In this document: positions 5,146 to 41,540 of the stretch, in pieces
Position numbering within the stretch: the first letter of the stretch is position 1
How the letters are laid out: each line of letters starts with the position of its first letter
Notes under the pieces: model-generated
Told to the model about the DNA's origin: nothing
The model's input: the letters and a program-made list of their open reading frames with translations, nothing else
Database searches by the model: none
From: a virus
Length of the DNA stretch: 46,945 nucleotides
Strand: one strand, 5' to 3'
Virus record (IMG/VR): IMGVR_UViG_3300020202_000023
Span: 1-46,945 of that record
Program-made: the position numbers and the translations under genes

Positions 5146-5152
5146 CGTTAGC

Positions 5153-5246: not shown

Positions 5247-5270
5247 ACGAATGCGCCCCCCTGATACAAG

Positions 5271-5348: not shown

Positions 5349-5352
5349 CGCC

Positions 5353-5412: not shown

Positions 5413-5429
5413 TGTAGTTGCTGCTAGCG

Positions 5430-6125: not shown

Positions 6126-6131
6126 CTTCGC

Positions 6132-6527
6132 TCAGCCTCCGACCGGGGTCATCAGCCGCCGCATGCCGCCGTTCGGCAGCTGCTCGACCGTCGGCTGGTA
6201 CGGCGTCGAGATGGGCGGGTAGTTCGCGTAAATCGGCACGGCCTCGCCGCCGGTGCAGGTGGCGCAGTAAAGCTCGCCGAACTCGTTGTCGACGTGACAC
6301 CGGCCGAGGCCGCACTCACACGCGCCGCCGCAGGCGTCCTTGAGCGCGATGAGCGCCGCGAACTCAGCGGCGTCGGGCGTCGACTCGCACGCCTCGCCCG
6401 TGCGCGTGTTTCGCGAATCGCAGTAGTATCCGATGACCTGGCAGAGCGCAGGCCGCGGGGCTCCGGCGATGTACCCCGCCGCGGCGAGGGTCGTAAGACC
6501 AAGGACTACAGACAACTTCCTAAGCAT
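6132..6527 (-). CDS. Secreted cysteine-rich protein
   Basis: A 131-residue protein with a signal peptide (MLRKLSVVLGLTTLAAAGYIAG). The mature part contains eight or nine cysteines, including a cluster ACECGLGRC and CATC, probably disulphide-bonded in the periplasm. AAGGAGATCCC before ATG 6527 is a good ribosome-binding site. It lies six bases upstream of the other exported protein, so both are probably made together. No family recognised. Confidence 0.78.
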   Translation of the reverse strand: MLRKLSVVLGLTTLAAAGYIAGAPRPALCQVIGYYCDSRNTRTGEACESTPDAAEFAALIALKDACGGACECGLGRCHVDNEFGELYCATCTGGEAVPIYANYPPISTPYQPTVEQLPNGGMRRLMTPVGG

Positions 6528-6548
6528 GGGATCTCCTTCCGCGCCGCA

Positions 6549-6554
6549 AGTATA
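6549..6554 (-). promoter_or_regulatory. Possible -10 element TATACT
   Basis: TATACT on the minus strand 22 bases upstream of the ATG at 6527, in the only gap (6528-6601) ahead of the exported-protein pair. A clear -35 is missing, so this is tentative. Confidence 0.3.
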
Positions 6555-6601
6555 CGACGCGCGCCCTGCCTATCACACGTTTGTCTTGCTGTCCATGGTT
6601 G

Positions 6602-6868
6602 CTATCGGCTCTGGTTTCGCTGCTGCCACTGGAAAGTCTCGTACGCGAGCCGCGCGGCCTGCCGCGGGGTCATGCCCGGCGGGTCCTCCATGGTCCCGCC
6701 GTAGCAGGAGCACTGACGGGTGATGTGGCCGACCGAGCCGATTACCCGGCGCGCAGAGCACTCGAGGTGGGCAACCTGAGCGCCGACCCCGTAGATGACG
6801 ACGGCCTCGGCGGGCTCCTCGGCCAGCACCGCCTCTTTGCAGTAAGGGCACATCGGGGCGGCGTTCAC
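6602..6868 (-). CDS. Conserved phage zinc-binding protein
   Basis: An 88-residue protein: CPYC at residues 7-10, HLEC near 34-37, then VIGSVGHITRQCSCYGGT and EDPPGMT.RQAA. The last blocks are characteristic of a widespread unnamed phage/plasmid family with a LIM-like zinc site; I recognise the pattern but know no function. It starts at GTG 6868 within the TGA of the upstream gene. Confidence 0.82.
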   Translation of the reverse strand: MNAAPMCPYCKEAVLAEEPAEAVVIYGVGAQVAHLECSARRVIGSVGHITRQCSCYGGTMEDPPGMTPRQAARLAYETFQWQQRNQSR

Positions 6869-7143
6869 TCACCGTGCTCCTTCGGCAGCTCGGCGCGCCA
6901 GACGCAACGCCAGCCATCGCCGACGGCGCGAAGGACGGCCGCGGCGCTATCGTTCTCAGGTGTGCCGAAGGGAGCCCCGTGCGCGCCTCCGGTCGGCAGC
7001 TTCTCGAAGAAGTCCGCCGGCAGCCGCGGCGCCATCTGTTCGAGGCAGTCGGCCACCTGCCGCATGCGCTTGGCGGCCACCTGCATCTGGCTTTCGTCTC
7101 CGGCGAAGACGCGGAACTCGAAGGTCCAGTCGAGGCGCCTCAC
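6865..7143 (-). CDS. Hypothetical protein
   Basis: A 92-residue protein. I place the start at GTG 7143, in a GTGA overlap with the stop of the gene upstream; an in-frame ATG further upstream would overlap that gene more. It begins with a beta-strand-like stretch (LDWTFEFRVFAG), then a helix with regular hydrophobic spacing. No family recognised. Confidence 0.7.
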   Translation of the reverse strand: MRRLDWTFEFRVFAGDESQMQVAAKRMRQVADCLEQMAPRLPADFFEKLPTGGAHGAPFGTPENDSAAAVLRAVGDGWRCVWRAELPKEHGE

Positions 7144-7379
7144 GCCGCGCTCCGCTTCCTCTGCCGCCATATCCGCCGCGCCTCGCGCACGCCGGCCGCG
7201 ACGAGGCGCCGTCTGCGAGGAGTCCGGTTCGGGCGCGCGAATCGGATGTACGTGAGTAGGAACTGCGTTCGCGACATGGTCGGCGTGCCGCGCGCCATCA
7301 CTACCACCTGCGCCCAACCCTCAACGAGGGTGGCCGCCAGCATCGCCACGGCGGCGGGGTCGGGCTGGTCGTCGCTCAT
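7140..7379 (-). CDS. Small basic hypothetical protein
   Basis: A 79-residue helical protein with a strongly basic C-terminal half (NRTPRRRRLV..., RRIWRQRKR), suggesting nucleic-acid contact. It starts at ATG 7379, one base after the 3' arm of the inverted repeat at 7381-7404. It is first in the coupled block 7379 to 6602. Confidence 0.72.
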   Translation of the reverse strand: MSDDQPDPAAVAMLAATLVEGWAQVVVMARGTPTMSRTQFLLTYIRFARPNRTPRRRRLVAAGVREARRIWRQRKRSAA

Positions 7380-7380
7380 G

Positions 7381-7404
7381 CCCTGGTATCTACCATAACC
7401 AGGG
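7381..7404 (-). promoter_or_regulatory. Inverted repeat abutting a start codon
   Basis: On the minus strand CCCTGGT, a 10-base loop and ACCAGGG, ending one base before the ATG at 7379. AGGG in the 3' arm is the only Shine-Dalgarno-like sequence. The layout parallels 2041-2072 and 5353-5384. It also contains the recurrent CTGGTT. TAGATA in the loop could be a -10, which would make the transcript nearly leaderless. Confidence 0.55.
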
Positions 7405-7417
7405 TCAGGGGACGGGG

Positions 7418-12758: not shown

Positions 12759-13340
12759 GTGGAAGTTACTGCCGTGCACGTCGCGATGGTGAGGAAGACC
12801 GTTCGTCGGATAGTTTGGAAGATCCGGCGGCGTTACTTGTTCGAAGATCTCTTCTCCGCCGGGCTTGAGGGGCTCGTCAAGGCGGCTCGGGCGTTCCAGC
12901 CCACGAAGGGGGTCCAGTTCCAGACGTACGCCGCGCACCGGATTCGCGGCGCCATCCTGGATCACCTCCGGAGCATCGATCCTGCGGGCAGGCATGCGCG
13001 AATACGTGCTCGCGCGGGCGACAAAGCAAAGGTGGAGTGGCTCAACAACCTCAAGGTGATTGCAGGGCAGGCCGCCGAGAGGATCCTGCTCGATATCCCG
13101 GTGCCGCCTGCGCAGGAAACAGATCTCGATCTCGCCCGACTACGCACCGAGATCTCGCGGGCGATGGAAGAGCTCACGGAGAAAGAGCACTACGTCGTGC
13201 GCCGCTGGTTCCTCGAGGGGGCGACGCTGGCCACCATCGGCGACGAGCTCGGCGTAACGGAGTCGCGCGCGTGTCAACTCGGGTCGGCTGCTGTTTCTCG
13301 TTTGAGATCGGCCTTGCGGTTTGGTAGCGAACCCGTTTAG
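12759..13340 (+). CDS. Phage-encoded RNA polymerase sigma factor (FliA/sigma-28-like)
   Basis: A 193-residue protein with both essential sigma regions. Region 2 (about 27-75) reads FEDLFSAGLEGLVKAARAFQP, FQTYAAHRIRGAILDHLRS; region 4 (about 138-186) reads LTEKEHYVVRRWFLEGATLA, then IGDELGVTESRACQLGSAAV. The layout is that of group 3/4 factors such as FliA, without region 1.1. It would direct host polymerase to phage promoters, most simply the late leftward operon. The start is GTG 12759; the ribosome-binding site is weak, so an internal ATG at 12786 is possible. Confidence 0.88.
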   Translation: MEVTAVHVAMVRKTVRRIVWKIRRRYLFEDLFSAGLEGLVKAARAFQPTKGVQFQTYAAHRIRGAILDHLRSIDPAGRHARIRARAGDKAKVEWLNNLKVIAGQAAERILLDIPVPPAQETDLDLARLRTEISRAMEELTEKEHYVVRRWFLEGATLATIGDELGVTESRACQLGSAAVSRLRSALRFGSEPV

Positions 13341-18168: not shown

Positions 18169-19323
18169 TTGAATAACCAAAATATCACGCCCGAGACGCT
18201 CGCAGCAATTATTGCGCAGGCGACCGCGAACGCAATGGCGCCGATGCTCCAGCAGCAGCAGCAAGCGTTTGCGGAGTTGGCGAAGACCACGGCGGCAAAC
18301 ACGCAGCTTGCGCCGAGTCGACCGAGCGGGGCGCCCGAGTTGATCCGCGACCTCTTCAAGAAGCACTACCTCGTCGAGGGGCAGCTCCGCCGCTCGGCCA
18401 AGGACATCAAGACGCGCGGCAACACGATCTGCGCGACGGTGCTCGAGATCGACGGCGTCGAGCAGCCGCTCGGGAAGTTCCCGGTGGGCGTGATGTCGCG
18501 GGTGGTGGCGTCGCTCTATCGCGAGAAGCGCAAGTCGACGGGCAAGACCCGCTACGGGACGCCGCCCAAGACGGCGACGCTCAACCGGGAGATTGCGCTC
18601 CTCAAGAGGGTGTACAGCTACGCGACGAGCGAGGGCTGGGTGACGAAGAATCCCCTCTCGAAGTTTGGCCTCGAGGAGGAGGACAACATCCGCAACGTGG
18701 AACTGCCGCCGGAGGACTTCGCCCACCTGCTGACGTTCTGCGATCACAAGACGGCGGCGCTGGCGATGGCGTACTACTCGACGGGGTGCCGGCGGCTGGA
18801 GATCCAACATCTCAAGTGGACGGGCTTCGACCACGAGACGGGGCAGATTTTCCTGCTTAAGACGAAGACGAAGGGCAAGAAGAAGCGGGAGCCGGTGCTC
18901 TCGCCGGAGGCACTCAAGGCGATCTTGTCGATGCCCCGGGTGGCCGGCTCCGAGTACGTCTTTGCGTCGCCGGAGACGAAGAAGCCGATCGCCTCGCGGT
19001 TTCTGCTCAAGCTGTTTCAGCGGGCGGTGCGGCGAAGCGGGCTTGAGGAGAAGCGGGGGCACATCTCCTGGCACACGCTGCGCCACCAGTTCGTGCGCAA
19101 CGGCCGGCAGGACGGGCTTTCGGAGAAGGTGCTCATGGCGGCGGGGGGCTGGGCGACACGGAGCGCGTTCGACCGTTACGGCATGCCGAGCGACGACGAG
19201 ATCACGGACGCCTTCCGCCGGGTGCACCGGCGCATCGGCCCCAAGGCGATCATGCGTGACGGGCAGGCGCCCGTTACCTCCGAGGACAGTTCTGAGAGCG
19301 AGCCGGTCAAAAAGGCTGGCTAG
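18169..19323 (+). CDS. int: Tyrosine-type site-specific integrase
   Basis: A 384-residue protein. Catalytic residues are in order: Arg208 in TGCRRLEI, a lysine-rich beta hairpin about 231-240, His302 and Arg305 in SWHTLRHQF, Trp328 in GGWATRSAFDRY and Tyr337, the nucleophile. The N-terminal 60 residues are Gln-rich and helical, then comes the core-binding domain. The start is TTG 18169, with AGGAG at good spacing, implying low translation. It lies about 310 bases from a tRNA-Lys-like sequence, the probable attP. Integration into the host chromosome is therefore expected. Confidence 0.95.
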   Translation: MNNQNITPETLAAIIAQATANAMAPMLQQQQQAFAELAKTTAANTQLAPSRPSGAPELIRDLFKKHYLVEGQLRRSAKDIKTRGNTICATVLEIDGVEQPLGKFPVGVMSRVVASLYREKRKSTGKTRYGTPPKTATLNREIALLKRVYSYATSEGWVTKNPLSKFGLEEEDNIRNVELPPEDFAHLLTFCDHKTAALAMAYYSTGCRRLEIQHLKWTGFDHETGQIFLLKTKTKGKKKREPVLSPEALKAILSMPRVAGSEYVFASPETKKPIASRFLLKLFQRAVRRSGLEEKRGHISWHTLRHQFVRNGRQDGLSEKVLMAAGGWATRSAFDRYGMPSDDEITDAFRRVHRRIGPKAIMRDGQAPVTSEDSSESEPVKKAG

Positions 19324-21927: not shown

Positions 21928-22622
21928 GCTACCACGACATCCTCGCCAGACTCTCGGCCCGGCTCGACGATCCGGCCACGAAGGCCGAGCAGGAGGCCGC
22001 CGAGGCCGAGCGCCGGGCCGAGCAACTCGCCGAGTGGAAGCTCGCCCAACGGTGGGCGCTCGAGTCGGCCGACGTCCCCGACAAGGACGTCGAGCTCATC
22101 GGTTCGGGGAAGGTCTACGAGACCCCGGCCGTCCAGGAGCTCGGCAAGGCCGGTAACCTCGTCGTCCTGTCGGGCTCCCCGGGCTGCGGCAAGACGACCG
22201 CCGCCGCGGTCTGGATCCACGCCTACATCGCCGACAAGGCGAACTGGGATCTCTCCTGGACGCCCACCCTCGTCGGCCCAAAGCCGATGTGGATGTCCGC
22301 CGCCCGCCTCTCCCGCTTCCCTAAGTACGACGAGGAGGCCATGCGCCGCCTGCTGCGCACGCCGCGCCTCGTGCTCGACGATCTCGGCGTCGAGTACATG
22401 GACGACAAGGGTGCCTACATGAGCCTCCTCGACGAGGTGCTCAACGAGCGCTACGCCGGGCGCCGTCCGACGGTCCTGACGACGAACCTGACCGCCGAGG
22501 ACTTCAAGGCCCGCTACGGCGCGCGCATCGCCGACCGCATCCGCGAGGTGGGCCGGTTCGTCAGCCTCGGCACCAAGAGCTACCGCAAAGAACGTTCCAC
22601 GAGGAACGGAAAAGCCGCATGA
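21924..22622 (+). CDS. DnaC-like AAA+ helicase loader
   Basis: A 232-residue protein. Walker A is GSPGCGKT (about 84-91), Walker B is LVLDDLG (about 149-155), sensor 1 is TTNL, and the arginine region is ARIADRIREVG near the C-terminus. This is the DnaC/IstB family pattern. It would load the host replicative helicase on phage DNA with the initiator-like protein upstream. The N-terminal 75 residues are helical and charged, the usual helicase-contact region. Confidence 0.9.
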   Translation: MSYHDILARLSARLDDPATKAEQEAAEAERRAEQLAEWKLAQRWALESADVPDKDVELIGSGKVYETPAVQELGKAGNLVVLSGSPGCGKTTAAAVWIHAYIADKANWDLSWTPTLVGPKPMWMSAARLSRFPKYDEEAMRRLLRTPRLVLDDLGVEYMDDKGAYMSLLDEVLNERYAGRRPTVLTTNLTAEDFKARYGARIADRIREVGRFVSLGTKSYRKERSTRNGKAA

Positions 22623-23176
22623 CCCCGCCCTTTCAGGCGTTCGAGCGCATCCCCCGGCTCCACCGCGACATCGTCATCACCGAGAAGCTCGACGGCACCA
22701 ACGCTGTCGTCCACATCGACGACAGCGGCACCGTGGTCACCGCCGGCAGTCGGAGCCGCTGGATCACCCCGGACAACGACAACTACGGCTTCGCCCGCTG
22801 GGTGGAGGAGAACAAGCAGGAGCTCCTCAAGCTCGGCCCCGGCTACCACTATGGCGAGTGGTGGGGCGCCGGCATCCAGCGCCGCTACGGGCTCAAGGAG
22901 AAGCGCTGGAGCCTGTTTAACACCGCCCGGTGGAGCGACCCAGCGGTGCGCCCGGCCTGCTGCCACGTGGTGCCCCTGCTCTACGACGGCCCGCTCCTCG
23001 GCCTCGGCGATCCGGTCAAGGACTGCCTCGCGTCCCTCTGGTGCAGTGGGAGCGTCGCGGCGCCCGGATTCATGCAGCCCGAGGGGATCGTCGTGTTCCA
23101 CAAGGCCAGCAACCACCTCTACAAGGTCACCCTCCCCGACGACGGACACAAGAAAGCAAAAGGAGCCCCGACATGA
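22619..23176 (+). CDS. RNA/DNA ligase-family nucleotidyltransferase
   Basis: A 185-residue protein with the covalent nucleotidyltransferase motifs: TEKLDGTN (motif I, Lys23 as nucleotide acceptor), GSRSRW (Ia), HYGEWWG (III), EGIVVF (IV) and LYKVTL (V). It lacks extra domains, so it is a minimal core like the Rnl2-type RNA ligases. It lies between the helicase loader and SSB, with an ATGA overlap. The role may be sealing RNA cut by host defence, or nick joining; the substrate cannot be told from sequence. Confidence 0.82.
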   Translation: MTPPFQAFERIPRLHRDIVITEKLDGTNAVVHIDDSGTVVTAGSRSRWITPDNDNYGFARWVEENKQELLKLGPGYHYGEWWGAGIQRRYGLKEKRWSLFNTARWSDPAVRPACCHVVPLLYDGPLLGLGDPVKDCLASLWCSGSVAAPGFMQPEGIVVFHKASNHLYKVTLPDDGHKKAKGAPT

Positions 23177-24332: not shown

Positions 24333-24803
24333 CTAGAGCCCTGCCACTTCAAGGGCCCGGTTCGCTTGCTCGACCATGCCGCCGGGGCCAAACCCCGGCG
24401 ACTTGTGGTAGGGGTCGGCGATCCCGTCGAGCATCATCGCCGCGTGCCACAGTTCGTGCGCGAGGGCGGTCTCGTGGATCTTGGTGTTGTCGGGCAACGC
24501 CACCGTCACCGCCCAGGGCACATAGGTCACGCCGCCCACGCAGTCGTTGCCGATGGTGACCGCCCGGAAGCCCTTGCCGTCGCGGCAGTTGAGCTCCTCC
24601 TGGCCGATCCAGAAGACCCCAGGGGGCGGCTCCTTGCGCCCGTAGACGGTCCGCCAGACGAGCTCCACGGCCTCCTTCGAGCCCTCCGGCGACGGCGCCG
24701 GCCGGAACATCGACCGGAACCCCGGCGAGCACGAGGCGACGAGCAGCACCGCGAGAACGATCACCCAGAAGCAGACGGCGCCCATGACGTCCCGAGCGCT
24801 CAC
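24333..24803 (-). CDS. Lipoprotein with HEXXH metallopeptidase motif, lysis cassette
   Basis: A 156-residue protein from GTG 24803 (GTGA overlap). A membrane segment ends in a lipobox LVASC (Cys25), so it should be a lipid-anchored envelope protein. Residues 116-120 are HELWH, a zinc-protease HEXXH motif, followed by D and H in ADPYHK as possible third ligands. It follows the endolysin gene. It could degrade an envelope protein during lysis or stand in for an outer spanin. The activity is inferred. Confidence 0.74.
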   Translation of the reverse strand: MSARDVMGAVCFWVIVLAVLLVASCSPGFRSMFRPAPSPEGSKEAVELVWRTVYGRKEPPPGVFWIGQEELNCRDGKGFRAVTIGNDCVGGVTYVPWAVTVALPDNTKIHETALAHELWHAAMMLDGIADPYHKSPGFGPGGMVEQANRALEVAGL

Positions 24804-25225
24804 GCGTTCTCGCTCCCGACGCCCCGGCCATCCCAGCGGGCAAGCGTACCGTTCGGCTTCTTGGGCCGGATGTCGAGGTGGAGCCAGCGGGGATACTTGC
24901 CGATGGCTCCGAGGCCAGGCAGCCGGCCGTTGGCCCACAGCCGCTCGACCATGGCCTCGAACTTCGGCAGCGTGTCCAGGAACACCGGCCGGATGTCGGC
25001 CGCCTCCCCGGTCATGTGCTTCGAGGCCTTGGCTCCGCCGACTTTCTCGTTCCACTTCGGAGAGCGCCAGCCGGAGACGATGATGATCGGCCCATACCAC
25101 TCCTCTCGGAGTGGCTGGAGTACCGTCATGCAGAGGCGTTTGAGGTTCGGGATGACGTGCGCCGGCACCCCCTCGCCGCTGTGGCAGTCGAACTCGTCGC
25201 TGTCGAAGTTGAGCGTGAGCCTCAC
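24800..25225 (-). CDS. Peptidase M15-type endolysin
   Basis: A 141-residue protein. Zinc ligands of the VanY/M15 family are visible: His70 and Asp77 in SKHMTGEAADI, and His116 in RWLHLD. SGWRSPKWNE precedes them, as in M15_3 peptidases. It cuts peptide bridges of the cell wall. No signal peptide, so export needs the holin. GTG 25225 overlaps the upstream stop. The size is normal for a single-domain phage endolysin. Confidence 0.9.
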   Translation of the reverse strand: MRLTLNFDSDEFDCHSGEGVPAHVIPNLKRLCMTVLQPLREEWYGPIIIVSGWRSPKWNEKVGGAKASKHMTGEAADIRPVFLDTLPKFEAMVERLWANGRLPGLGAIGKYPRWLHLDIRPKKPNGTLARWDGRGVGSENA

Positions 25226-25470
25226 AGGCCTAGTCCTTTGACCGCCCGGCGAGCTTCATGCGCAAGATCGCCGATCTCGCCGAGCTTCTGCGCAAGCTGA
25301 CTGAGAAGGCTTCGGCGTGCATCGCCTTCCAGCTCATCGAGACGTTTCGCAGTTTCTGCGCAGTCGAGTCCAATAGCGTCGAGTGCAAGGGCGAGGTTTG
25401 CGAGGCTGATTGCCTCGGCTGAGGGGATTCGCCGTCCCCGGGGCGGTGTGTCGTGGTGCTCCATGGCCAT
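25222..25470 (-). CDS. Small helical protein in lysis cassette
   Basis: An 82-residue helical protein (CAETAKRLDELEGDARRSLL) from ATG 25470. It has no membrane segment. It sits between the coiled-coil membrane protein and the endolysin. It may regulate lysis or be structural; unknown. Confidence 0.72.
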   Translation of the reverse strand: MAMEHHDTPPRGRRIPSAEAISLANLALALDAIGLDCAETAKRLDELEGDARRSLLSQLAQKLGEIGDLAHEARRAVKGLGL

Positions 25471-26750: not shown

Positions 26751-27131
26751 TTAGCCTCCGAGCGCCCGGTCGTAGTGGCCCACGAGCGCGAGTCGCCACG
26801 TGGTCTGTGCGCTGCCGCCATTCACGAAATCGAGCTTCCAGTCGTAGAAGGGATCGACGAGGAAGTCGTAGGGGCCGTTGACGACGCCCGAGCCGGCCGC
26901 CGCCACCGCCTGGCTCGAGTACTCGTCCCACGTGGTGCCGCCGTTCGTCGAGCAGTACGCCTTGAGCGTGCCGCTGTGGCTGTTTTTCATGGTGAGCGTG
27001 AAGCGCTTGATCCCCGTCGTGGGGAGCACTTTCGCGCCCATGGCGGTCACCGTGGAAAAGAGGGTGTAGGTGTTCGAATCAGCGCCCGGGGTGCCCCCCG
27101 AGACGGCGTATCCGGTGGACGGCTGGGTCAT
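26751..27131 (-). CDS. Small beta-rich structural protein
   Basis: A 126-residue beta-rich protein from ATG 27131 (ATGA overlap). Strands such as IKRFTLTMKNSHSGTLKAYC and TWDEYSSQAV suggest a jelly-roll or immunoglobulin-like fold, as in decoration or fibre-attachment proteins. Not named. Confidence 0.65.
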   Translation of the reverse strand: MTQPSTGYAVSGGTPGADSNTYTLFSTVTAMGAKVLPTTGIKRFTLTMKNSHSGTLKAYCSTNGGTTWDEYSSQAVAAAGSGVVNGPYDFLVDPFYDWKLDFVNGGSAQTTWRLALVGHYDRALGG

Positions 27132-29212
27132 TGACTGGCTCCTGTTTGCTCGCGCTTGAGCGACTCAAGCGCGTCGAGAACGGCCTGCTCGATCGGGGGC
27201 AGGAACGCGGGCACCATCCCCGGCAGGCGAACGGACGGCGGGCGAAGAAGGCGGCGCTCTCCCCACTCGGCGGCGGGGTGAATGCCCTTGGCCAGGAACG
27301 GGCGAGCGAGGCGCAGCTCGCCCTTGCCGCCCAGCCACGAGGGCACCTGGAACTCGAGGCTGTCCTGCGCGGCTTGGCGGGCGGCCCGCTCCTCGACCTC
27401 GGAGAGGACGGCGCGCGGCCCATGGAATGCCTCCTCGAGATCGTACGGAGTGAGGCGCTCGCTGTAGGGGAATTGCTCGCGGAGCTCGTCGAGTCGGCGC
27501 TGCTCCATACCGGAGGCGCCGCTCGCGTCGTCGCCGTACCGCATGATCTGCTTGGCGAGGGAGCCCTCAGACTCTGAGCGCATCCGCTCCTCGGTGCGCT
27601 CGAGCTTCTGGCGTCTCGCGTGTGCACGGCGATCGGCAAGGGACATCTTTGGCGCTACGGCCGGCATCACCTCATGACGGATTAGGTCGGCATACTTCTG
27701 GATGATCGTGTCAGTCGGGTGCTGGTTTGCGACGTCGTAGTTGATCTGATCGTCAAGCGCCTTCTTGATGGCGTGCCACTGGTCCGCCGTCAGCGCCCGG
27801 TTGGGCGTCAGAGGGCCGCCGACGCGCCCTCTGACCTCCTCGATCGGGACCTCGAAGACGTCGTCCTGGTACGTCGAGGTGGAAACCCCCTGAAAACCAG
27901 GCCGCTCGATACGATCGACGACGACCGGCTCAGGAGAGTCGGTCGTCACCGCCCGTCCTTGCACCTGATTCGGTAGTCCCTCCTCCGAGTACCAGTCGGA
28001 CCGCGGCGAGACGGTCTGCTCCCGGTCGGCCCCGACGCCACGGCCCTTGCGCTGGACAAACACCGCCGCTGGGCTTGTAGACACTTCTTCGACCGCTGCC
28101 GGCGGGTGAAGCTCCACCGGGCGCTCGAGCATCTCCTCCACGCCGCCGACTGGACCGGCGCCCCGGATGGCCGTCGCCGGATACACCGTCTCCGTCGGCT
28201 CCTTTTGTCCGCGGAGCATTCGCCGAACGTTCATGAGGGTGGCGCGCGCTCCGGGCCGCAGGTTCCGAGTGACCGGGTTGGCGAGATCTTTCTCAAGCTC
28301 CTCGAGTACCTGCTCGGAGCTGTGGAGACGGGAGCCCTGCGCCGCACTTGCGGCGGGCCCTTCGACGTGGGTAAGCCGCTTCTCGGTTGCCCGCTTCTGA
28401 ATGGCCACCTCGCCCTTGATCTTCTGCTCCGCCTCGTCGGCGAGCTGTCCGGCGCCGTGCTTCGTGGGCGGCACGCCGTACTTCTGCGACGGCGGCGTCG
28501 CCCCATACGACGGCGGGCGCTTGAGCATCGGGATCTCGGGAACGAGCTTTTCGACGACGGGCTTCGCCGCTCGGAGCATGTGCGGGACCCCGTCCTGTCC
28601 GACCGCAGCCGCGGGACCGAGCATCGCGCCGAGTTTCCCGCTTTCGACCCCAGCCGAATGCGCCTCTAGCGGCGTCTCGGTGCCTTTGGCGAGCGAGCGC
28701 CCGACGCCCTCCGTGTATCCACCGGCGCCACCGGCCACGACTGCCCGCCCGGCCTTGTCGAGGAGCTTCTCGCCAGCCAGGAGGCCCTTGCCCCCTTGAT
28801 AGAGCTTCTGCGCGACAGGGACTCCGAGGCTGCCTACGAGGCCGCCCCAGATCTCGGCGCCACCGGCCAGCCACGGGTGCTCATCGGCCGCAGCGACGTC
28901 CCTACGCGCCTCGGCGATTTCGTCGGGGCGGGAGACGTTCCCACGTTCGAGCACGTTGTCCGGGCTGGCCACACCAAAGGCCGCGCCGCGCCGGACACCC
29001 GTACCCAGCGCGCGCCCGTAACCCTTCGCCTGCGCGAGGAGCTCGCCGAACAAGGAAGGGCTCGCCGGCATTGGGGAAAACCCCTTCTTCGCCTTCTCGA
29101 TGAGCTGGGGCTCGCGCTCGACCTGCTTGGCCATGTGGGCCAAGTCCCCGGCGGTGACGCCCTGAGACAGAAGGCTATCGACGAGCGCGTCGAGCTCGTT
29201 GTCGTCAGCCAC
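27128..29212 (-). CDS. Large internal virion/ejection protein
   Basis: A 694-residue protein from GTG 29212 (GGGAGGCGGCCC upstream). A helical N-terminus is followed by a Gly/Ala-rich, possibly membrane-active region (about 65-170, with WGGLVGSLG and AVVAGGAGGYTEGVG), then long charged segments. It is third in the 33152-27128 run, like the P22 ejection proteins that cross the envelope with DNA. Sequence similarity is not obvious; the call rests on size, order and composition. Confidence 0.68.
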   Translation of the reverse strand: MADDNELDALVDSLLSQGVTAGDLAHMAKQVEREPQLIEKAKKGFSPMPASPSLFGELLAQAKGYGRALGTGVRRGAAFGVASPDNVLERGNVSRPDEIAEARRDVAAADEHPWLAGGAEIWGGLVGSLGVPVAQKLYQGGKGLLAGEKLLDKAGRAVVAGGAGGYTEGVGRSLAKGTETPLEAHSAGVESGKLGAMLGPAAAVGQDGVPHMLRAAKPVVEKLVPEIPMLKRPPSYGATPPSQKYGVPPTKHGAGQLADEAEQKIKGEVAIQKRATEKRLTHVEGPAASAAQGSRLHSSEQVLEELEKDLANPVTRNLRPGARATLMNVRRMLRGQKEPTETVYPATAIRGAGPVGGVEEMLERPVELHPPAAVEEVSTSPAAVFVQRKGRGVGADREQTVSPRSDWYSEEGLPNQVQGRAVTTDSPEPVVVDRIERPGFQGVSTSTYQDDVFEVPIEEVRGRVGGPLTPNRALTADQWHAIKKALDDQINYDVANQHPTDTIIQKYADLIRHEVMPAVAPKMSLADRRAHARRQKLERTEERMRSESEGSLAKQIMRYGDDASGASGMEQRRLDELREQFPYSERLTPYDLEEAFHGPRAVLSEVEERAARQAAQDSLEFQVPSWLGGKGELRLARPFLAKGIHPAAEWGERRLLRPPSVRLPGMVPAFLPPIEQAVLDALESLKREQTGASQ

Positions 29213-29262
29213 GGGCCGCCTCCCTCTTGTCGAGACGGGGCAGCAAGGGGAAACTAGAGATC

Positions 29263-29529
29263 ATGAAGCGCGTGGCGTTCGGCGTGGCGATGTTCTTCCT
29301 GGGGACGATGTTCTCGTCGGGCTCGTCGGAGGCCGAGAAGGCGTCGGAGGCGCTGGCGCTCCTGTGCAAACGGCACAAGGAAGAGATCGCGCGCGCGAAG
29401 AAGGTCCACGACGCAGTCTTGCTCAAAGCAAACGCACCGCGCCCGTCACGCGCCGACGACATGGCCGGTTGGGCCGCGTACGCCGAGAACAACACGCTCT
29501 GGCGCATGTATCGCGTATTCTGCGAGTAG
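29263..29529 (+). CDS. Exported small protein on the opposite strand (moron candidate)
   Basis: An 88-residue protein from ATG 29263 that lies alone in the gap between two leftward ejection genes (29213-29530). It has a signal peptide: KR, then VAFGVAMFFLGTMF, then SSGSSEA. The mature part is a charged helix (KEEIARAKKVHDAVL) with two cysteines (LLCKRH, RVFCE). Its ribosome-binding site is weak (AAGGGG, far). The competing minus-strand frame has no plausible protein pattern. It may alter the lysogen's envelope, but this is inference. Confidence 0.62.
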   Translation: MKRVAFGVAMFFLGTMFSSGSSEAEKASEALALLCKRHKEEIARAKKVHDAVLLKANAPRPSRADDMAGWAAYAENNTLWRMYRVFCE

Positions 29530-29530
29530 C

Positions 29531-31102
29531 TCACGGCGCTTCCCCGCTGAGTTTCTGGCGCAAGGCCGGGTTGCGACGGAGTAGTTGCTTCAGTCGCTCG
29601 CGCTCGGCGGCTTGCTTGTTCGGATCAGGGGCGGGGGTTGGGTTGCCGCGCTCCGGGCGAGTTTCGCTCGGCGGACGAATGCCTGTCGCCCTCTTCCCGG
29701 CGGGGGAGTCGATGATGATCGTGGCGCCGTCCACCTTGATCGGAGGGCGCCCGAACGTGCGGAAATTCCGGTTGTACCAGTGAGCCGTGTTCCCCTTCAT
29801 GTTCTGGTACAAGGGATCGTCGATGAACGACTCCCGGAAATCTCGCTCCAGTTCGTCCACCCGACGAGTCACCAAGTCGCCGAACCTGCCCATGATGGAC
29901 TGCTCGAAGATCTTTCGCTGACCGGCAGCTAGCCCGCCGCTCATCCACGCCTCGACGAGCTGGTTGAAGGACTCCCACTTTCCTCCGACGCTCTCTATGA
30001 TCTTCCTCTGCTCGTCTTCCGTGAACACGCCGGGGCCAGCGATCTTGCGACCGATCGCAAACCGCGCGGACGTCGAGTCGATCTGGTTCTTCGACCGGAT
30101 CTCGCGCAGGGCGATCTGAAGTGCCCGATGCTCTTCGCGCGCATCGTCGTAGCCGGCGTCCTTCTGCCACTGCTGAACATCGGTACGCAGATCTCGCGCA
30201 GCAGATTGCGTGAATCGCGCCTCTTCCCCAGGAGTGACCTTGACCCCGTGCATGCCAGCGCGCCTCGTCGACTCCTGCTGCTCGATGAGCGCGCCGATTC
30301 GCTTGCTGTAGGTCTCGAAAGCGTCCTGCGGCGTCTTGAAAGCTCCGGTCTGCGCCTGGCCGAGTGACTCGTCCGCGGCAACTCGGCCAAGCTTCTGGTG
30401 CTCTGGCGGCAGTCTGGTGATCATCTCCTCGAACTGAGGAGCGAGTGAGTCGGCGAGCTGCTTGCCTCGCGCGAGCCGCGCCTGGTTATCGGCGGCGAGG
30501 GAGAGCGTGGTCTCCGCCCCGGCCGGCATGCGGAGGGTGTAGTTGCCGGTCGGCTGCGGATTGGCGACCGCTTGGTGATCGGCTTCAGCCTGGGCCGCGT
30601 ACTGCGCCTGTCGCTGCTGAAGATCTGGCGCGGCCTCCTCGGCGATCGAGGCCGGCGGGGTGAGGGGCGGCAGGGAAGACAGAAACGGAGAGGGAGGCAT
30701 CTCCGGCTCGAACTCCATCCCGTTCGCCTGGGCGATGAGCCGCGCCCCCTCGACGTCCTGCTCGCCGAGCGCCTTGCGCACGTCGGGCGCTGCCTTGGCG
30801 GCCTGCTCCTGGAGGCGCTGGTTGGCCTTGACCTGCGCGGCCTGGATGCGGGCTGCGTTCTGCGCCTCGGCGTGCTCGCGCTGCCAACCGAGGTTGTCCC
30901 GGTTGTACTGCTCGGTCGCGAGGTGGTGACGGTGCATCTCCGCCCGCTGCGCCTCGGCGGCCATCCGCTGCTGCTCGAGCTGCTGCATCTGGAGCCGCCG
31001 ATCGGCGTACGCCTGAAGCAGGCTCGAGATGTTCGAGAGCTCACCTGCGAGCGGCGACGGCGCCGACGGCTTGGTGAGCCCGGACCAGTCGAGACGAGCC
31101 AT
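29531..31102 (-). CDS. Internal virion/ejection protein
   Basis: A 523-residue protein, strongly helical and Gln/Ala/Glu-rich in the first 170 residues. Near residues 380-440 it has GGKWESFNQLVEAWMSGGLA and GQRKIFEQSIMGRFGDLV, then ELERDFRESF. I know this pattern from podovirus internal proteins. It starts at ATG 31102, just after the stop of the previous gene. Probably ejected with DNA. Confidence 0.7.
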   Translation of the reverse strand: MARLDWSGLTKPSAPSPLAGELSNISSLLQAYADRRLQMQQLEQQRMAAEAQRAEMHRHHLATEQYNRDNLGWQREHAEAQNAARIQAAQVKANQRLQEQAAKAAPDVRKALGEQDVEGARLIAQANGMEFEPEMPPSPFLSSLPPLTPPASIAEEAAPDLQQRQAQYAAQAEADHQAVANPQPTGNYTLRMPAGAETTLSLAADNQARLARGKQLADSLAPQFEEMITRLPPEHQKLGRVAADESLGQAQTGAFKTPQDAFETYSKRIGALIEQQESTRRAGMHGVKVTPGEEARFTQSAARDLRTDVQQWQKDAGYDDAREEHRALQIALREIRSKNQIDSTSARFAIGRKIAGPGVFTEDEQRKIIESVGGKWESFNQLVEAWMSGGLAAGQRKIFEQSIMGRFGDLVTRRVDELERDFRESFIDDPLYQNMKGNTAHWYNRNFRTFGRPPIKVDGATIIIDSPAGKRATGIRPPSETRPERGNPTPAPDPNKQAAERERLKQLLRRNPALRQKLSGEAP

Positions 31103-31103: not shown

Positions 31104-33152
31104 CTAGTCCTCGTCCCTCTTCACGTTCGAGCGCGGATCCGTGATGGTCTTGTACGCGGCCCGCTGGGTCGGGGTGTACGTGGCCGTGGGATCGCTCGCC
31201 CGGGGCGCGGGCGGCAGAGCGGACAGCGGGAGCGAGAACGTCCTGAACAGGTTCTGGATGGCCTGATCGGCCGCCTGCCCCTCGAGCTCGCCCTGCTTGA
31301 TGCGCCCCTGGATCTGCTCCCACTCGAGCTCGAACTGCTCGCGCCGGGCGGCGTCCATGCCGGCCGAGTAGGTCGCGATCTGGTGCTCGACGAGCCGGAA
31401 AAGGTTGTCGACCTCGCGTTGGTAGCGGCCCTCCTCAAGACCCTGCGCGGTGGTCGCCCCAGACATCCCCGTCTCGAAGGTGTCGAGGCCCTCCTTGGAG
31501 ACGTTGCCCGCGATGTTCGAGCCCATCCCGAACTTGGCCATGATGTTGTCGAAGATGGCCTGCTCGAGCTTGGCGCGCTCGGCGCGCCGGTCGGCCCCCG
31601 CCTTGTCGGCGGCGCCGCCATGCTTCATGAGATCCTCGACGATGGCGCGAACCTCCGCCCCAACCTTCGCCGCCACCTCGGCGCCGCCCTTGACCCGGCC
31701 CTCGCCCGCAGCCTGCGCCGCGTGAGCCTCGCGCATGAGCGTCGTGATGCGCTCCATCGCCTTGCCCTGCGCCTCACTGGAGAAATTGCCGGCAGAGATG
31801 AGCCGGTTCATCGCCGCTGACTGCGCACGGTCGGCCGTGTCGGCTCCGAGGCCCACCCGCTCGATCGCGCGGCCCTGGGCGTTGTTCGCCGCCTGGCCGC
31901 CGAGCTCCAGGCCGCGGAAGCGCTGGTCTTGGATGGTCTTGAGAAGATCCTGGCGGGACTTCGCGCGCTGGAGCGCGATCTGGTCGACGCTCTGGGCGCC
32001 CTCGAAGCCGAGGCCGATGCGCCCCCGGAGCGACGAATCCGCCCCCTGCATGAGATCGAGACCGTAGCGGTCGCGCCCGAGGCGCTGGTTGTCCGCCTCG
32101 GCGGCGAGCGCCGCCATGTCGCGCGCCTGCTGCGCGCCGAGCTCGGCGTTGAGCTCGCCGGTGGCCCGCAGGGCCGCGCCGGTGTTGAATCCACCCTTCG
32201 CGGCGGCGGCCTCATCAAGGCGCCGGGCGCCGGTCTTGTAGGCCTGATCGTAGTAGCGGTTGAGGCCGGTGTTGCCCTCTTCGTAGAGGCGCTCGGTGTT
32301 CGTCTTGTACTTGGGGTCATACCCCTGGGCCATGCGCTCGGTGTAGCCGGCGTTTTCGAGCTGGCCGCGGTTCTTGGTGAAGAAGTCCTCCATCATCACC
32401 GCGCGGTTGATGTCCGACTCGACGTCACCACGGCCGCGCTCGAGCTCACCCGGACGGGTGTAGTCGTAGCGGTTCTCGATGTACCAGTTCTCGGCGGCGC
32501 CGGGATTCGCGAAGAAGGTGCGGAAGTCGTCGTTGAACCGCTCCATCGCACCCGGGCGCGCGAACTCGCCCTTGTTGGCGCCCCACCACTTCTCGAACTC
32601 CCCTGGTTCGAGGAAGAAGCCCTTGTTGTCGGCGAACGCGCGCTCGCCCTCGCCCGGCCGGTCGAAGGTGCCCCGGTTGGCGTTCCAGTAGTCGCCGAGC
32701 GTGCCGGAGCCCTGGAGCATCCGCTGGATCTCGGGCCACATGTCCTCGACGCGCGACGAAGACGGGATCTGGTTGCGGAGATCCTGGAGGCCTTCGAGCC
32801 CCTGGTCGGGGTTCGTGAACCACCCCTGAATTCCCTGCCAGTAGCCGGCGAGCGGCTGCTGCCCCTGGAGCCGCCAGGCGTTGTCCTTCCAGTACTGCTC
32901 GCCGACGCCTGGCTTCGAGAGCACGCCATCGGTGCGCGGCACGGGCGACGCAGGCTTCGTCGGCCGCGGCGCCGTCGGCCGCGGCGTCGTCGCGAGTGGG
33001 TTGGCGGGCGGCATGGGGAGCCCCACAAGGCCCGGAGGCGTCGTGTACGCCCCCGTGGCCCCGTTCATGCCGCTTCCGCCGCGCCAATCCGTATCAGGCG
33101 GGCGCGTCTTCTTCCTCGACGGCGGCGGCGTGAATCCGCTCCATCCGGCCAT
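31104..33152 (-). CDS. Internal virion protein with 17-residue tandem repeats
   Basis: A 682-residue protein. Residues 1-80 are Pro/Thr-rich. Residues 156-240 are five exact-length 17-residue units of the form W..NRG.F..PGE.ER; a diverged unit is at 105-121. The rest is a long helical region with many AAEADN/QAANNAQG-type repeats. It is first of three large proteins before the lysis genes, the usual place for ejection proteins. The repeats may form a short superhelix. Confidence 0.7.
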   Translation of the reverse strand: MAGWSGFTPPPSRKKTRPPDTDWRGGSGMNGATGAYTTPPGLVGLPMPPANPLATTPRPTAPRPTKPASPVPRTDGVLSKPGVGEQYWKDNAWRLQGQQPLAGYWQGIQGWFTNPDQGLEGLQDLRNQIPSSSRVEDMWPEIQRMLQGSGTLGDYWNANRGTFDRPGEGERAFADNKGFFLEPGEFEKWWGANKGEFARPGAMERFNDDFRTFFANPGAAENWYIENRYDYTRPGELERGRGDVESDINRAVMMEDFFTKNRGQLENAGYTERMAQGYDPKYKTNTERLYEEGNTGLNRYYDQAYKTGARRLDEAAAAKGGFNTGAALRATGELNAELGAQQARDMAALAAEADNQRLGRDRYGLDLMQGADSSLRGRIGLGFEGAQSVDQIALQRAKSRQDLLKTIQDQRFRGLELGGQAANNAQGRAIERVGLGADTADRAQSAAMNRLISAGNFSSEAQGKAMERITTLMREAHAAQAAGEGRVKGGAEVAAKVGAEVRAIVEDLMKHGGAADKAGADRRAERAKLEQAIFDNIMAKFGMGSNIAGNVSKEGLDTFETGMSGATTAQGLEEGRYQREVDNLFRLVEHQIATYSAGMDAARREQFELEWEQIQGRIKQGELEGQAADQAIQNLFRTFSLPLSALPPAPRASDPTATYTPTQRAAYKTITDPRSNVKRDED
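32433..32687 (-). repeat. Five tandem 51-bp codon units (17-residue repeats)
   Basis: Codons for residues 156-172, 173-189, 190-206, 207-223 and 224-240 of the gene at 31104-33152. All units have the same length, with a conserved PG at positions 11-12 and Phe/Tyr at 8. The DNA copies are diverged, so the duplication is old. Confidence 0.8.
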
Positions 33153-33545: not shown

Positions 33546-34958
33546 CTACGTGAGCACCTCGAAGTCCTCTTCCGCGCCGATGAAGGCGAGCTCCGCTGAA
33601 GAGTCGTATTCGAGCTTCCATTGACGTTGGCGGTAAGTGCCGGAGCTGTGGATCTCGACAATCGGATCGTAGTCGCCCGCCGTCCCCAGACTCACCATGG
33701 TCTGGGGACAAAAGGCCCCGCCGTCGTCGCGCCAGGAGATGGCCACCTGGGGCGCGGTGCCGCCGTAGCTGCCCACGCCCCGCTTGAACATGAACCGGGT
33801 GGACCTGTTCAGCTTCCAGGCTTTCGTGCCGTGGCTTACAAAACCGGTGACGAGCTCGACCTTGATGGGGTTCGACAGATCCGTGTACGCCGAGGCGTCG
33901 AGCTTGGCGATCTGGCCCGTGGAAAGGCCCACGAGGAGGAGGTTCCGCTCGGGCCAGGCGACGGCCGATGTGATGTTGATGGACTGCCAACCCGACGAGC
34001 CGAAGGCGCGCCACTCGGCCCAGCGGGAGGTGTTCAGGTCGAAGATGAGCCCCTTCCCCTCGGTGGGGAAGAAGGTGACGCAGGCGTCCCACTGGTCGAT
34101 CTGCAGGCGGACGCCCCAGGCGTCATCGACCGTCGAGTAGGCGTCCAGCGTCCGCTTGAGGAATTTCGAGCTGACGTCATCGAAGCCCCGGCCGTCGGTC
34201 ATGACGAACCGGCGGAGCCGCTCGAACATGAAGAAGTTCGCGTCGACGGGGGTGATGGAGTAGGGCGCGATGGGGGCGATGTCGAGCGCGCGCGAGCGGG
34301 CGAATCCCGTGTACGGATCCGGGACGTGTACCTCGACAGTGCGCGAGCCGAAGGCGAAGATCTCGCCGCCGTTTTCGTGGAGAGCCACGAGCCGGTCGTG
34401 CTTCGATTCCGCCTCGGCGTAGTTGAGCGCGTCCCAAGTCTCGTGCGCCGTGTCCCCGAGGCCGCTCCAGCGGAAGATCCCGGAGACGTCGGCGACGGAG
34501 CCGACGATGCGCGTAGCGATGCCGGCCACGTGAGTAAGTGAGGGCGGCGAGCCCCCGAGGCGGGCGGACAGCCCCAAGCCCGTCCACTTCTGAGGCGCGC
34601 CGCCCCCGGTAACTACAACCTTCGTTCGCAGCGGCAGGAACACCGGGCGATCGGGCCCGGCGAGCTGCGTGGCCGCGGTGGCGTCCGACAGCGATAGGAC
34701 GGTGTCCTCGCCGATCCAGGCGAAGAGCTTCCGGTCCTCGGTGGCGTAGACGAGGTACTCACCCCACGGGCACATCGCAGTGACCGCCGAGGCGTTCGGG
34801 ATGGCCGAGGGGAACTCATCCCAGGCCGAGATCCCGGGCCGCTGCCGGATGGTGCCCGTGTCGTCGACGAACGAGTTGACGGACAGGGGGCTCGCCCCGC
34901 CGAGCTGCTCGAGACCGGAGGCTTGCGTGTCGGCGAAGGGGAGGGCTTCGGCCGGCAT
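33546..34958 (-). CDS. P22 gp10-like packaged-DNA stabilisation protein
   Basis: A 470-residue protein. The N-terminus SGLEQLGGASPLSVNSFVDD then RQRPGISAWDEFPS is typical of this tail-hub family. Repeated four-strand blades follow (YLVYATEDRKLFAWIG, RLVALHENGGEIFAFGSRTV), giving a beta-propeller-like body. P22 gp10 is 472 residues, almost the same length. It would plug the portal below the gp4-like adaptor. ATG 34958 adjoins the tailspike stop. Confidence 0.82.
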   Translation of the reverse strand: MPAEALPFADTQASGLEQLGGASPLSVNSFVDDTGTIRQRPGISAWDEFPSAIPNASAVTAMCPWGEYLVYATEDRKLFAWIGEDTVLSLSDATAATQLAGPDRPVFLPLRTKVVVTGGGAPQKWTGLGLSARLGGSPPSLTHVAGIATRIVGSVADVSGIFRWSGLGDTAHETWDALNYAEAESKHDRLVALHENGGEIFAFGSRTVEVHVPDPYTGFARSRALDIAPIAPYSITPVDANFFMFERLRRFVMTDGRGFDDVSSKFLKRTLDAYSTVDDAWGVRLQIDQWDACVTFFPTEGKGLIFDLNTSRWAEWRAFGSSGWQSINITSAVAWPERNLLLVGLSTGQIAKLDASAYTDLSNPIKVELVTGFVSHGTKAWKLNRSTRFMFKRGVGSYGGTAPQVAISWRDDGGAFCPQTMVSLGTAGDYDPIVEIHSSGTYRQRQWKLEYDSSAELAFIGAEEDFEVLT

Positions 34959-36614
34959 CTAGGCGACGTCCTGCGACGATCCGGTCAGCAACCAGTTTGT
35001 GCCATCCCACACGAACCAGAACGTCGAATACCGGAGACTCTGGATGTTCGCGACCGCAACAGAGCTGGCGCTGAGCCCGACGTACTGAGCGTTGAACGAG
35101 GGCGTGCCCGTAGCGGCACCGCCGTACACGATGACGATGGTAAGGTGATCCCCGACGGCAAGGTTTGTCGTCGCGGTGGCGTTGATGGTGATGGTGATCG
35201 CGCCAGCGTTCGACGCCGTGAACTGGTTGATGGGGTACGTTGGATCGGGAGTGAACGACGGTCCTGCAGCGGCGCTCGACGCGCTCGTGCGGCGGGTGGG
35301 GACACGCCGGTCCTTGAGCCAGGCGTGACCGACCTTCGACGTGTCCGTGAGGGTCGAGTACGTGTTCGAGTGCTCGACAAACGCCGTGGCGCTCGCGTTG
35401 ATGCTGATGTCCGTGGTGTTGCCGCTGAAGCTGTTCCCGATGATCTTGCCGCGCGCGACCGCGGCCATGGCGATCCCGGTCGACGCGCCAGCGACGTAGC
35501 AGTCCTTGACGGTGCCGTCGGCCGTGGCCATGTCGATGGCGGTGCCGCTCGAAGCGGCGATGACCTTGCAGTCCCGCGCGGTGCCGTAGGCGCCGTCAAG
35601 CGCGATCCCCTTGCCGTTCGAGGCGGAGGTCACCCGGCACTTGTAGGCGGTGCCGTGAGCACCGAGGCGGATGGCCTTGCCGGCGGAGTTGCCGTCGGTG
35701 GAGTCGACGAGGCAGTCCTCGACAAAGGCGTGCGAGACCGCCTGAACGTCGATGCCGATCCGGTGAAGCGCGGTCCGCACCCGGTAGAGCGCCGGGCCGT
35801 CCCCGTGCGTGAACTTGATCGCCGTGCCGCTCGAGGTGCTGTCGGCGGTGATGGTGAAGTTGCGCAGGATGATGTGCGACTCGATGGCGCTCGAAAGGTC
35901 GATGGTGAGCGCTGTATTCGACGTCGACATGTTCTTGATGACGCAGTTGGCGCGGTCGGCCCCTTCGATGACGAGGCCGGCGCCGGAGGAGCCCTGGACG
36001 GAAAGGCCGCTCGTGATCCGGTACGTCCCGGGCTCGATCCACACCGGCTTGTTCGCCGCCATCGCGCGCGTGATCGCCTGCTGAAACGGCGTCGTGTCGT
36101 CGTTCGAGTCGTTGCCCGCGGCTCCGAAGTCGGAGGGGGAGACCCACTTGCCGATCGCCGCGTACATGTAGCGGCTCGTGGCGGTGCTCGACTCGGCATA
36201 CTTGCCATCGGTCCCGCCGAAGCTGGTTCCGAGGGTGCCCAGGGCAGTGGCCACGTCGGTACGGCCGCCCGCGACCTGCTGGCCGGTGGTGAGGCTCGTC
36301 CCGGTAAAGCCCGCAACCTCGAGCTCCACCTGGCCGGCGGCAATGGTGTTCGCGCGGTCTTCGACCTTGACGGTGGCTCCGGACGAATCCTGGATCTCGA
36401 CGCGACAGGGGACCTTCGCGTACACGACCGCCCGGCCACCAGCATCGAGGGTGACGGGCTGCGACAGGGCCACGAGGCCGTCATCGTCGCTGTAGATCGA
36501 GACCTGGGTGGCGGTCGTGTCCGGCTGGTAGAAGTAGGCGCGGCCGGAGGCCACGGCGGTCCCGTCGGACTTACGGGCGCCCGAGTAGGCGAGCCAGGAG
36601 ATCAGCGAGGCCAT
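34959..36614 (-). CDS. Tailspike with right-handed beta-helix
   Basis: A 551-residue protein. An N-terminal domain (1-90) is followed by SPSDFGAAGNDSNDDTTPFQ about residue 158, the entry motif of pectate-lyase-3 type tailspikes. Many repeated rungs follow (HIILRNFTITADSTSSGTAI, GIGIDV-like turns) to about 420. Then comes a small C-terminal beta domain. It would bind and perhaps cut host surface sugars. Unusually, the gene lies between the gp4-like and gp10-like genes. Catalytic residues cannot be read off. Confidence 0.85.
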   Translation of the reverse strand: MASLISWLAYSGARKSDGTAVASGRAYFYQPDTTATQVSIYSDDDGLVALSQPVTLDAGGRAVVYAKVPCRVEIQDSSGATVKVEDRANTIAAGQVELEVAGFTGTSLTTGQQVAGGRTDVATALGTLGTSFGGTDGKYAESSTATSRYMYAAIGKWVSPSDFGAAGNDSNDDTTPFQQAITRAMAANKPVWIEPGTYRITSGLSVQGSSGAGLVIEGADRANCVIKNMSTSNTALTIDLSSAIESHIILRNFTITADSTSSGTAIKFTHGDGPALYRVRTALHRIGIDVQAVSHAFVEDCLVDSTDGNSAGKAIRLGAHGTAYKCRVTSASNGKGIALDGAYGTARDCKVIAASSGTAIDMATADGTVKDCYVAGASTGIAMAAVARGKIIGNSFSGNTTDISINASATAFVEHSNTYSTLTDTSKVGHAWLKDRRVPTRRTSASSAAAGPSFTPDPTYPINQFTASNAGAITITINATATTNLAVGDHLTIVIVYGGAATGTPSFNAQYVGLSASSVAVANIQSLRYSTFWFVWDGTNWLLTGSSQDVA

Positions 36615-37316
36615 CTACCAGTTCCTCCCGCGGTGAGTGACACGGAGCTGGATGGCGCCCCGCTGGACATCGTCGCCCCGGCAGATCGCCTTCATCCGCT
36701 CGGCCTCGCTCCGCAGGTACCCGGTCTTGTCGAGGGGCAGGTTGCGGGCGAGGGCGATCTGGGCGGCGATGGAGTAGGCCACGGCCTGGAGCCAGCGCCG
36801 GGCGACGTCCATCGTGACCGCGCCGGTGTCAGCGTCACGCAGGAGCCGCACGCGGGCGTAGCGCCAGGTGTATGCGCCGTCCGGCACGGGCCAGGGATAG
36901 GCGGTGACGGTGGCGAGCTTCTCGATGTAGATGCGCGAGGGGCGCCCCTCCTGCGTCGTCTGCGGCAGGTTGAGGTACTCGTCTCGGCTCATGACGTAGA
37001 CCGGGGTAGCGGTCCCCGAGGAGCCGGTGACGGCGCCGATCTCGTCGTTGGGTCCGACGTGGACGTCGATGGTATCGGCGTCGAGGGCGTAGGAGCCGGT
37101 CCCGTCCGCGAACGCCTTCGTGGTGCGCTCGACAGTGCGCAGGACGACGCCCTCGGCCTGAAGGTTCATGAGCTCTAGGTTGAGGAAGTCCGACGCCATC
37201 CCGATCTCAGCGGCGCTGGGCTCCTTGCCCGCCATGAGCGTCCCGGTCAGCTGGTAGGCCATCCGGATGAGCTGGTCCCGGGTGAAGTCGAGCGAGTAGT
37301 TCGCGGAGACGGTCAC
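36615..37316 (-). CDS. P22 gp4-like head-to-tail adaptor
   Basis: A 233-residue protein from GTG 37316 (GTGA overlap). Residues 10-65 (FTRDQLIRMAYQLTGTLMAG, DFLNLELMNLQAEG) and 120-190 (DEYLNLPQTTQEGRPSRIYI) are the usual blocks of gp4/tail accessory factor proteins. It is somewhat longer than P22 gp4 (166). It forms the ring beneath the portal. Confidence 0.83.
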   Translation of the reverse strand: MTVSANYSLDFTRDQLIRMAYQLTGTLMAGKEPSAAEIGMASDFLNLELMNLQAEGVVLRTVERTTKAFADGTGSYALDADTIDVHVGPNDEIGAVTGSSGTATPVYVMSRDEYLNLPQTTQEGRPSRIYIEKLATVTAYPWPVPDGAYTWRYARVRLLRDADTGAVTMDVARRWLQAVAYSIAAQIALARNLPLDKTGYLRSEAERMKAICRGDDVQRGAIQLRVTHRGRNW

Positions 37317-41396: not shown

Positions 41397-41469
41397 GAGG
41401 GAAAGCTGCTTCCTCCGCTTCGAAGACCCCCGTCCGCTCGCTGCCTGCGGCGACAGCGGGACACGGCCC

Positions 41470-41496
41470 CCTCCCCTGAAGGGGAGGTTGTTTGTC
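41470..41496 (+). terminator. Plus-strand terminator-like hairpin inside the leftward operon
   Basis: CCTCCCC, loop TGAA, GGGGAGG, followed by TTGTTTGT on the plus strand: a classical rho-independent form, but facing against the operon. It lies in the 144-base gap between scaffold and the gene at 40977. It might stop antisense transcription. On the minus strand the 3' arm is GGGGAGG. Confidence 0.55.
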
Positions 41497-41540
41497 AGCG
41501 TGATGGTTTGTAAGCTACGTCGTCAATTCTGGTCTGGGGA

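Follow-up and report, generated by a model that had tools for sequence, protein, structure and literature searches.

The virus record IMGVR_UViG_3300020202_000023 from IMG/VR, analyzed here over its whole length of 46,945 bases (66.8% G+C; hereafter the window), carries at 29263–29529 (+) an open reading frame (ORF) of 88 codons that is best explained as a moron-type gene, lying opposite the late operon between two ejection-type genes and encoding a small protein exported to the periplasm. That the ORF is a real gene appears very probable and, given a real gene, there is a good likelihood that it is an accessory gene of the moron type; for the combination of a real, moron-type and exported gene, the evidence is modestly favorable. 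The moron-type organization is fairly well supported, while the function is a guess.

Between 24144 and 46901, nearly all gene calls lie on the minus strand and are tightly spaced except at 29213–29530, where a gap of 318 bases forms the widest break in the late operon (the runner-up in our own gene calls, 41397–41540, spans 144 bases). Within this gap, the 88-codon ORF runs on the plus strand from an ATG at 29263 to a TAG ending at 29529, and obtains gene caller scores of 44.3 and 47.3. Its stop falls one base short of the stop of the converging upstream gene (29531–31102, minus; 523 amino acids, aa), and 50 bases (29213–29262) are left at its start as a divergent spacer to the downstream gene (27128–29212, minus; 694 aa). 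Sequence comparison places homologs of the upstream flank in two related records, L002 and L006, and of the downstream flank in L002. The initial annotation, which had described a plus-strand gene with a signal peptide filling a 318-base gap, is thereby confirmed with both flanks on the minus strand; its placement of the gene among ejection-protein genes holds for position and strand, the flanks being of ejection type by position and size only.

The initial annotation had missed that the minus frame at 29205–29534 (109 codons, GTG start) is intact as well. If this frame were the gene, its product would be a small late protein made in sequence with the ejection proteins by way of the GTGA at which the frame overlaps the upstream gene; the frame also overlaps the downstream gene by 8 bases, and the plus-strand ORF would be its shadow. 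We consider this very improbable. G+C content at third codon positions was rejected as the deciding measure, since the third positions of the two frames pair with each other and their values are equal over the shared stretch. Because these positions face each other, codons were instead scored against the antisense of known genes in exactly that phase, using 27 genes from the window, L002 and L006, with each gene omitted while its own stretches were scored. The resulting sample comprises 126 real (sense) stretches of 88 codons, and in 25 of these the facing frame is open, so that the openness of the minus frame is in itself weak evidence. The codon bias that the initial annotation expected of the plus strand is present: the ORF reaches 18.6 bits, a score equal to or above that of 8 of the 126 sense stretches and higher than in any of the 25 open antisense stretches (maximum 10.1). 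The 88 minus-strand codons that face it score −14.0 bits (−14.1 over the full 109 codons), as low as none of the 126 sense stretches (minimum −4.8), and 2 of the 25 open antisense stretches score as high. An earlier version restricted to genes of the window (47 stretches in each direction; lowest sense score −1.7, highest antisense score −1.3) had the same outcome, with +11.5 for the plus and −17.3 for the minus frame.

A pooled codon model assigns the plus-strand ORF 0.53 bits per codon, near the median of 125 real stretches (0.56; 5th percentile 0.16), and among 118 stretches of 88 codons that are open antisense to known genes, none reaches 0.41 (maximum 0.30). The minus frame obtains 0.24 bits per codon, which taken alone lies within the range of real genes and is not clearly non-coding. 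G+C by codon position is 0.59/0.47/0.89 in the plus-strand ORF and 0.49/0.58/0.87 in the minus frame, the latter being an unusual order. Although intact in the window itself, the minus frame encodes a protein without a match in L002 (E ≤ 1) or L006 (E ≤ 0.01), the relatives in which an intact copy would have spoken for it, and without a match in PHROGs, Pfam, INPHARED or NCBIfam. We judge the 109-codon frame to be a shadow and not a gene. Calls by the gene caller were not used alone as proof because some are doubtful, at least one on the opposite strand in the window and two at the truncated end of L006.

It is similarly improbable that the gap is non-coding, or a decayed remnant, in which GC-rich sequence happens to leave both frames open. 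At 67% G+C, open frames are frequent, as the facing frames of known genes demonstrate, and no homologs were found for the 88-aa or the minus-frame protein. Against this stand the near-median codon score of the plus-strand ORF, its signal-like start, its snug fit between the neighboring stop and the 50-base spacer, and the equally oriented ORF that L002 has at this site.

Besides the window, the related IMG/VR records found are L002, L003, L004 and L006, and the site is covered in L002 and L006 only; L003 stops short of it, and L004 is distant (23% identical in one protein). The gene order in L002 is as in the window, with 51% identity for the adaptor, 44% for the spike and 58% for the Hc3-like protein, and 29–30% in matched stretches for the three large ejection-type proteins. 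The corresponding gap in L002 measures 195 bases and, like that of the window, holds an ORF on the opposite strand, here of 50 (ATG) or 52 (GTG) codons, with a stop that overlaps the stop of the upstream gene and a hydrophobic stretch from which a membrane protein of about 50 aa is predicted. The same gap also contains an operon-strand ORF of 59 codons. When codons are scored in the phase that applies to these two ORFs, against 231 real and 197 open antisense stretches, the opposite-strand ORF obtains 10.0, with 14 real stretches as low and no antisense stretch as high, and the operon-strand ORF obtains −3.0, with no real stretch as low and 1 antisense stretch as high. Codon scores derived from L002 genes alone are 21.2 and 7.6 bits, respectively. 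The other two phases were dropped as inapplicable to these ORFs; both strands pass in them. The opposite strand is thus favored in both phages, more firmly in the window than in L002.

At the L006 junction, there is no insert, and the next gene starts inside the stop of the upstream one (TGATGG, a one-base overlap). The upstream flank in L006 is homologous to 29531–31102 (E 1e-5; E 1e-12), and the downstream gene begins with MADDLK like that of L002, encoding 599 aa compared with 694 in the window and 675 in L002. The comparison with related phages that the initial annotation had proposed thus finds the gene replaced in L002 and absent in L006, so that among these three syntenic phages the site is occupied, replaced or empty, as expected of a moron. 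A shared insertion site is suggested by two inserts and one empty junction, one flank of which is placed by position. No repeats flank the insert in the window, and the L002 stretch has one two-copy family of 14 bases, probably by chance.

The 88-aa protein begins with MKR, followed by VAFGVAMFFLGTMF and SSGSSEA, i.e., a charged n-region, a hydrophobic core and small residues ahead of a cleavage site that, read by eye, would lie after S-E-A. Residues 1–24 (29263–29334) are a predicted Sec signal peptide with a hydrophobicity of 2.04 and a model helix at 3–16. The crude rule applied, hydrophobicity above 1.5, is passed by 3 of 83 called ORFs, the 88-codon ORF among them, and also by 5 of 235 non-called ORFs of at least 60 aa, four of which have a higher value. 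The signal peptide was therefore rejected as proof of a gene; of the signal-peptide claim in the initial annotation, the signal-like start survives as a property of the protein, while its use as evidence for the gene does not. The mature part of 64 residues (29335–29526) appears helical in a low-confidence AlphaFold2 model. This single-sequence model contains helices 3–16, 20–55, 63–75 and 78–87, at a mean predicted local distance difference test (pLDDT) score of 70.9 and a predicted template modeling (pTM) score of 0.44. The two cysteines are residue 35 (29365–29367) and residue 87 (29521–29523), and, judging by their spacing, a hairpin arrangement of the helices would place them roughly opposite each other. 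Removal of the signal peptide would leave a short helical protein in which the cysteines could form a disulfide. A second exported-looking protein in the window (6132–6527, minus; 131 aa) has a signal-like start and many cysteines, and no match in Pfam, PADLOC or NCBIfam.

No credible family, homolog or fold was found for the 88-aa protein, in agreement with the earlier view that its mature helix with two cysteines is not a known family. There is no credible match among INPHARED phages or plasmids, no homolog in the four related records, and no family in PHROGs, Pfam or PADLOC; one NCBIfam match is to an unrelated family (13.4 bits against a cut-off of 65.5), and two sequence matches to solved structures are not credible (best E 0.29). 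In a pattern scan of IMG/VR, 8 stretches fit the pattern and none was confirmed. A 28-residue tblastn match in L002 (E 0.007, 3540–3623) lies far from the site and was taken as chance. Fold searches of two libraries returned nothing at E ≤ 0.001, which says little because the model is of low confidence. For the opposite-strand ORF of L002, there is no match in INPHARED or PADLOC and one sub-threshold match each in Pfam and NCBIfam.

The phage group itself is sparsely represented, with INPHARED matches all below 60% identity and, among the matches listed, at most about 30%. A search of INPHARED with the ejection-type proteins of 31104–33152 and 27128–29212 gave no match. Single-sequence scans of IMG/VR with two ejection-type proteins found none, and alignment scans with two recovered only the L002 contig again, of which L005 is a further slice. 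Genome contigs were scanned twice with other genes, without a match and hence without a prophage of a named host.

A tyrosine integrase is encoded at 18169–19323 (+; PF00589 3e-18, phrog_1 2.1e-35), which makes lysogeny plausible; none was seen in the three other records, which are 10.8 to 34.4 kb long and perhaps fragments. We infer that the 88-codon gene would have its own promoter and be expressed in the lysogen, with expression from the prophage independent of the late transcript, and that it could act in superinfection exclusion. The moron assignment made in the initial annotation thus gains from the coding signature, the exported-looking product, its replacement or absence in relatives and the integrase, while a promoter of its own, expression in lysogens and an envelope effect are putative; a sigma-70 consensus scan recognized no promoter. 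The phage encodes a sigma-70 family factor (12774–13340, plus; Sigma70_r2 6e-13, Sigma70_r4 1e-10, phrog_351) that could read promoters invisible to such a scan, perhaps including one for this gene. In the spacer, GGGAGG precedes the GTG of the downstream ejection-type gene and AAGGGG lies about 12 bases ahead of the plus-strand ATG, both by eye.

Several observations weigh against a moron-type exported gene at a shared site. Around the gene, the consensus scan showed no promoter-like site, noting that promoters of the host may differ, and the sole terminator-like site nearby (29592–29612, past the gene) amounts to 1 where shuffled sequence gives 1.0. The divergent starts of the ORF and the downstream ejection-type gene are just 50 bases apart. 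At about 65% G+C, compared with 66.8% for the window, the gene is not marked as foreign; a deviating base composition is frequent in morons and not required. The Sec signal is predicted by a crude rule and not a trained predictor, and no homolog of the 88-aa protein was found that would allow a test for selection. With respect to L002, the whole 195-base gap scores slightly better in the operon-strand frame (7.8 compared with 6.4 bits), the pooled score of the opposite-strand ORF, 0.34, exceeds the 95th percentile of 299 open antisense stretches (0.22) and stays below their maximum (0.40), and its caller score of 21 is in the range of calls judged false elsewhere. The small proteins of the window and L002 are not recognizably related. 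In L006, the downstream flank is assigned by position and the MADDLK start, its similarity to a profile of window and L002 not being significant.

A mainly regulatory role, in which plus-strand transcription would damp late expression of the downstream ejection gene and the protein would be secondary, is most improbable given the coding signature and signal-like start of the ORF. In addition, L006 manages without any insert, and the consensus scan saw no promoter from which such transcription could begin.

A lysogen can become resistant to other phages through small envelope proteins encoded by its prophage, and short genes of this kind without relatives easily escape annotation. In P22-like phages, the late operon contains a moron of variable, non-morphogenetic content that carries sieA and is missing from some members (PMC2629481; PMC8022706), and among those compared, morons are reported in morphogenetic clusters nowhere except before the tailspike gene. 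SieA is described as an inner-membrane protein of P22 of 162 or 164 aa, with three predicted transmembrane segments and no obvious signal sequence, that prevents injection of DNA; the mutations that escape it map to genes 16 and 20, which encode ejection proteins (PMC10883804). As for this “ant moron”, with its membrane protein gene for superinfection exclusion, the window site represents variable non-morphogenetic content among late genes near ejection-protein genes, absent in some relatives. Unlike the “ant moron”, which is reported to lie between gene 16 and tailspike gene 9, the window site is between two ejection-type genes with a putative spike upstream, and unlike SieA as described, the window protein has 88 aa and a signal-like start. 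It shows no similarity to known exclusion families in PHROGs, Pfam, PADLOC or NCBIfam; the letters of SieA were not compared directly.

By analogy, and not homology, the 88-aa protein might act on related short-tailed phages as SieA does in P22, by interfering with the conduit through which their DNA is ejected across the periplasm, and the gene lies where an ejection blocker would be expected if the logic of P22-like phages applies. Exclusion of superinfecting phages at the envelope is the best single guess for its function, though a tentative one, and some other envelope role is as likely. That the gene is real and exported with a different task, be it in the envelope, in lysogenic conversion or in a lysis-related periplasmic function, is an appreciable possibility that overlaps with the core of the moron explanation, and PHROGs and PADLOC offer no sequence link between the protein and exclusion. 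A lysis role is made less likely by the endolysin region elsewhere on the other strand (Peptidase M15, 24800–25225, minus, by family match), where two small proteins match holins weakly (E 0.026 and 0.061), and the P22 precedent at a comparable place is one of exclusion.

Other small exclusion genes provide limited parallels. The HK97 moron gp15 reportedly has exclusion activity, going by the title of a paper, and is said to be a small membrane protein; the 88-aa protein, not compared directly with gp15, matches no PHROG or Pfam family. In Pseudomonas aeruginosa phage Fc02, the exclusion genes olg1 and gene 10 are described on opposite, overlapping strands, and the olg1 product is 7.9 kDa (PMC9936078). 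Opposite overlapping frames and a small product are common to the two loci, but in the account of Fc02 both strands are exclusion-active and lie in a regulatory region, whereas the window site belongs to a late operon and has the appearance of coding on the plus strand only.

A more far-reaching idea is that the junction serves specifically for the exchange of opposite-strand genes, whose small and mutually unrelated envelope products would each block, in a self-specific manner, the DNA-ejection conduit encoded around them, so that SieA-like functions would have been independently invented beside their own target; we regard this as unlikely. Irrespective of function, the site comparison suggests a search route, namely opposite-strand ORFs between these two ejection-type genes.

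The remaining late genes are arranged from the large terminase and portal at the right of the window (PHROGs), followed by coat region genes assigned by position. On the minus strand, an adaptor-like gene (36615–37316; its 10 INPHARED matches include several with an adaptor annotation), a putative spike (34959–36614; PHROGs) and an Hc3-like closure protein (33546–34958; PHROGs) come before the three large proteins in place of ejection proteins (31104–33152, 29531–31102 and 27128–29212), for which no family exceeds the cut-off in PHROGs or Pfam. In L003, tandem spike genes at 4069–7409 both match the one spike of the window (47% and 41% identity), a likely duplication. Beside the endolysin, a protein at 24333–24803 (minus) shows, by eye, a VASC resembling a lipobox and an HExxH motif (HELWH), and matches no family above the cut-off; it may be a metalloprotease of the lysis region that is anchored in the membrane. 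Both strands are open again at 25222–25470 (minus) and 25258–25422 (plus), where the caller took the plus strand; the 82-codon minus frame suits the operon better by eye, and the plus call is doubtful. Among the plus-strand genes, 22619–23176 encodes an RNA ligase family protein (PF09414, 1e-11).
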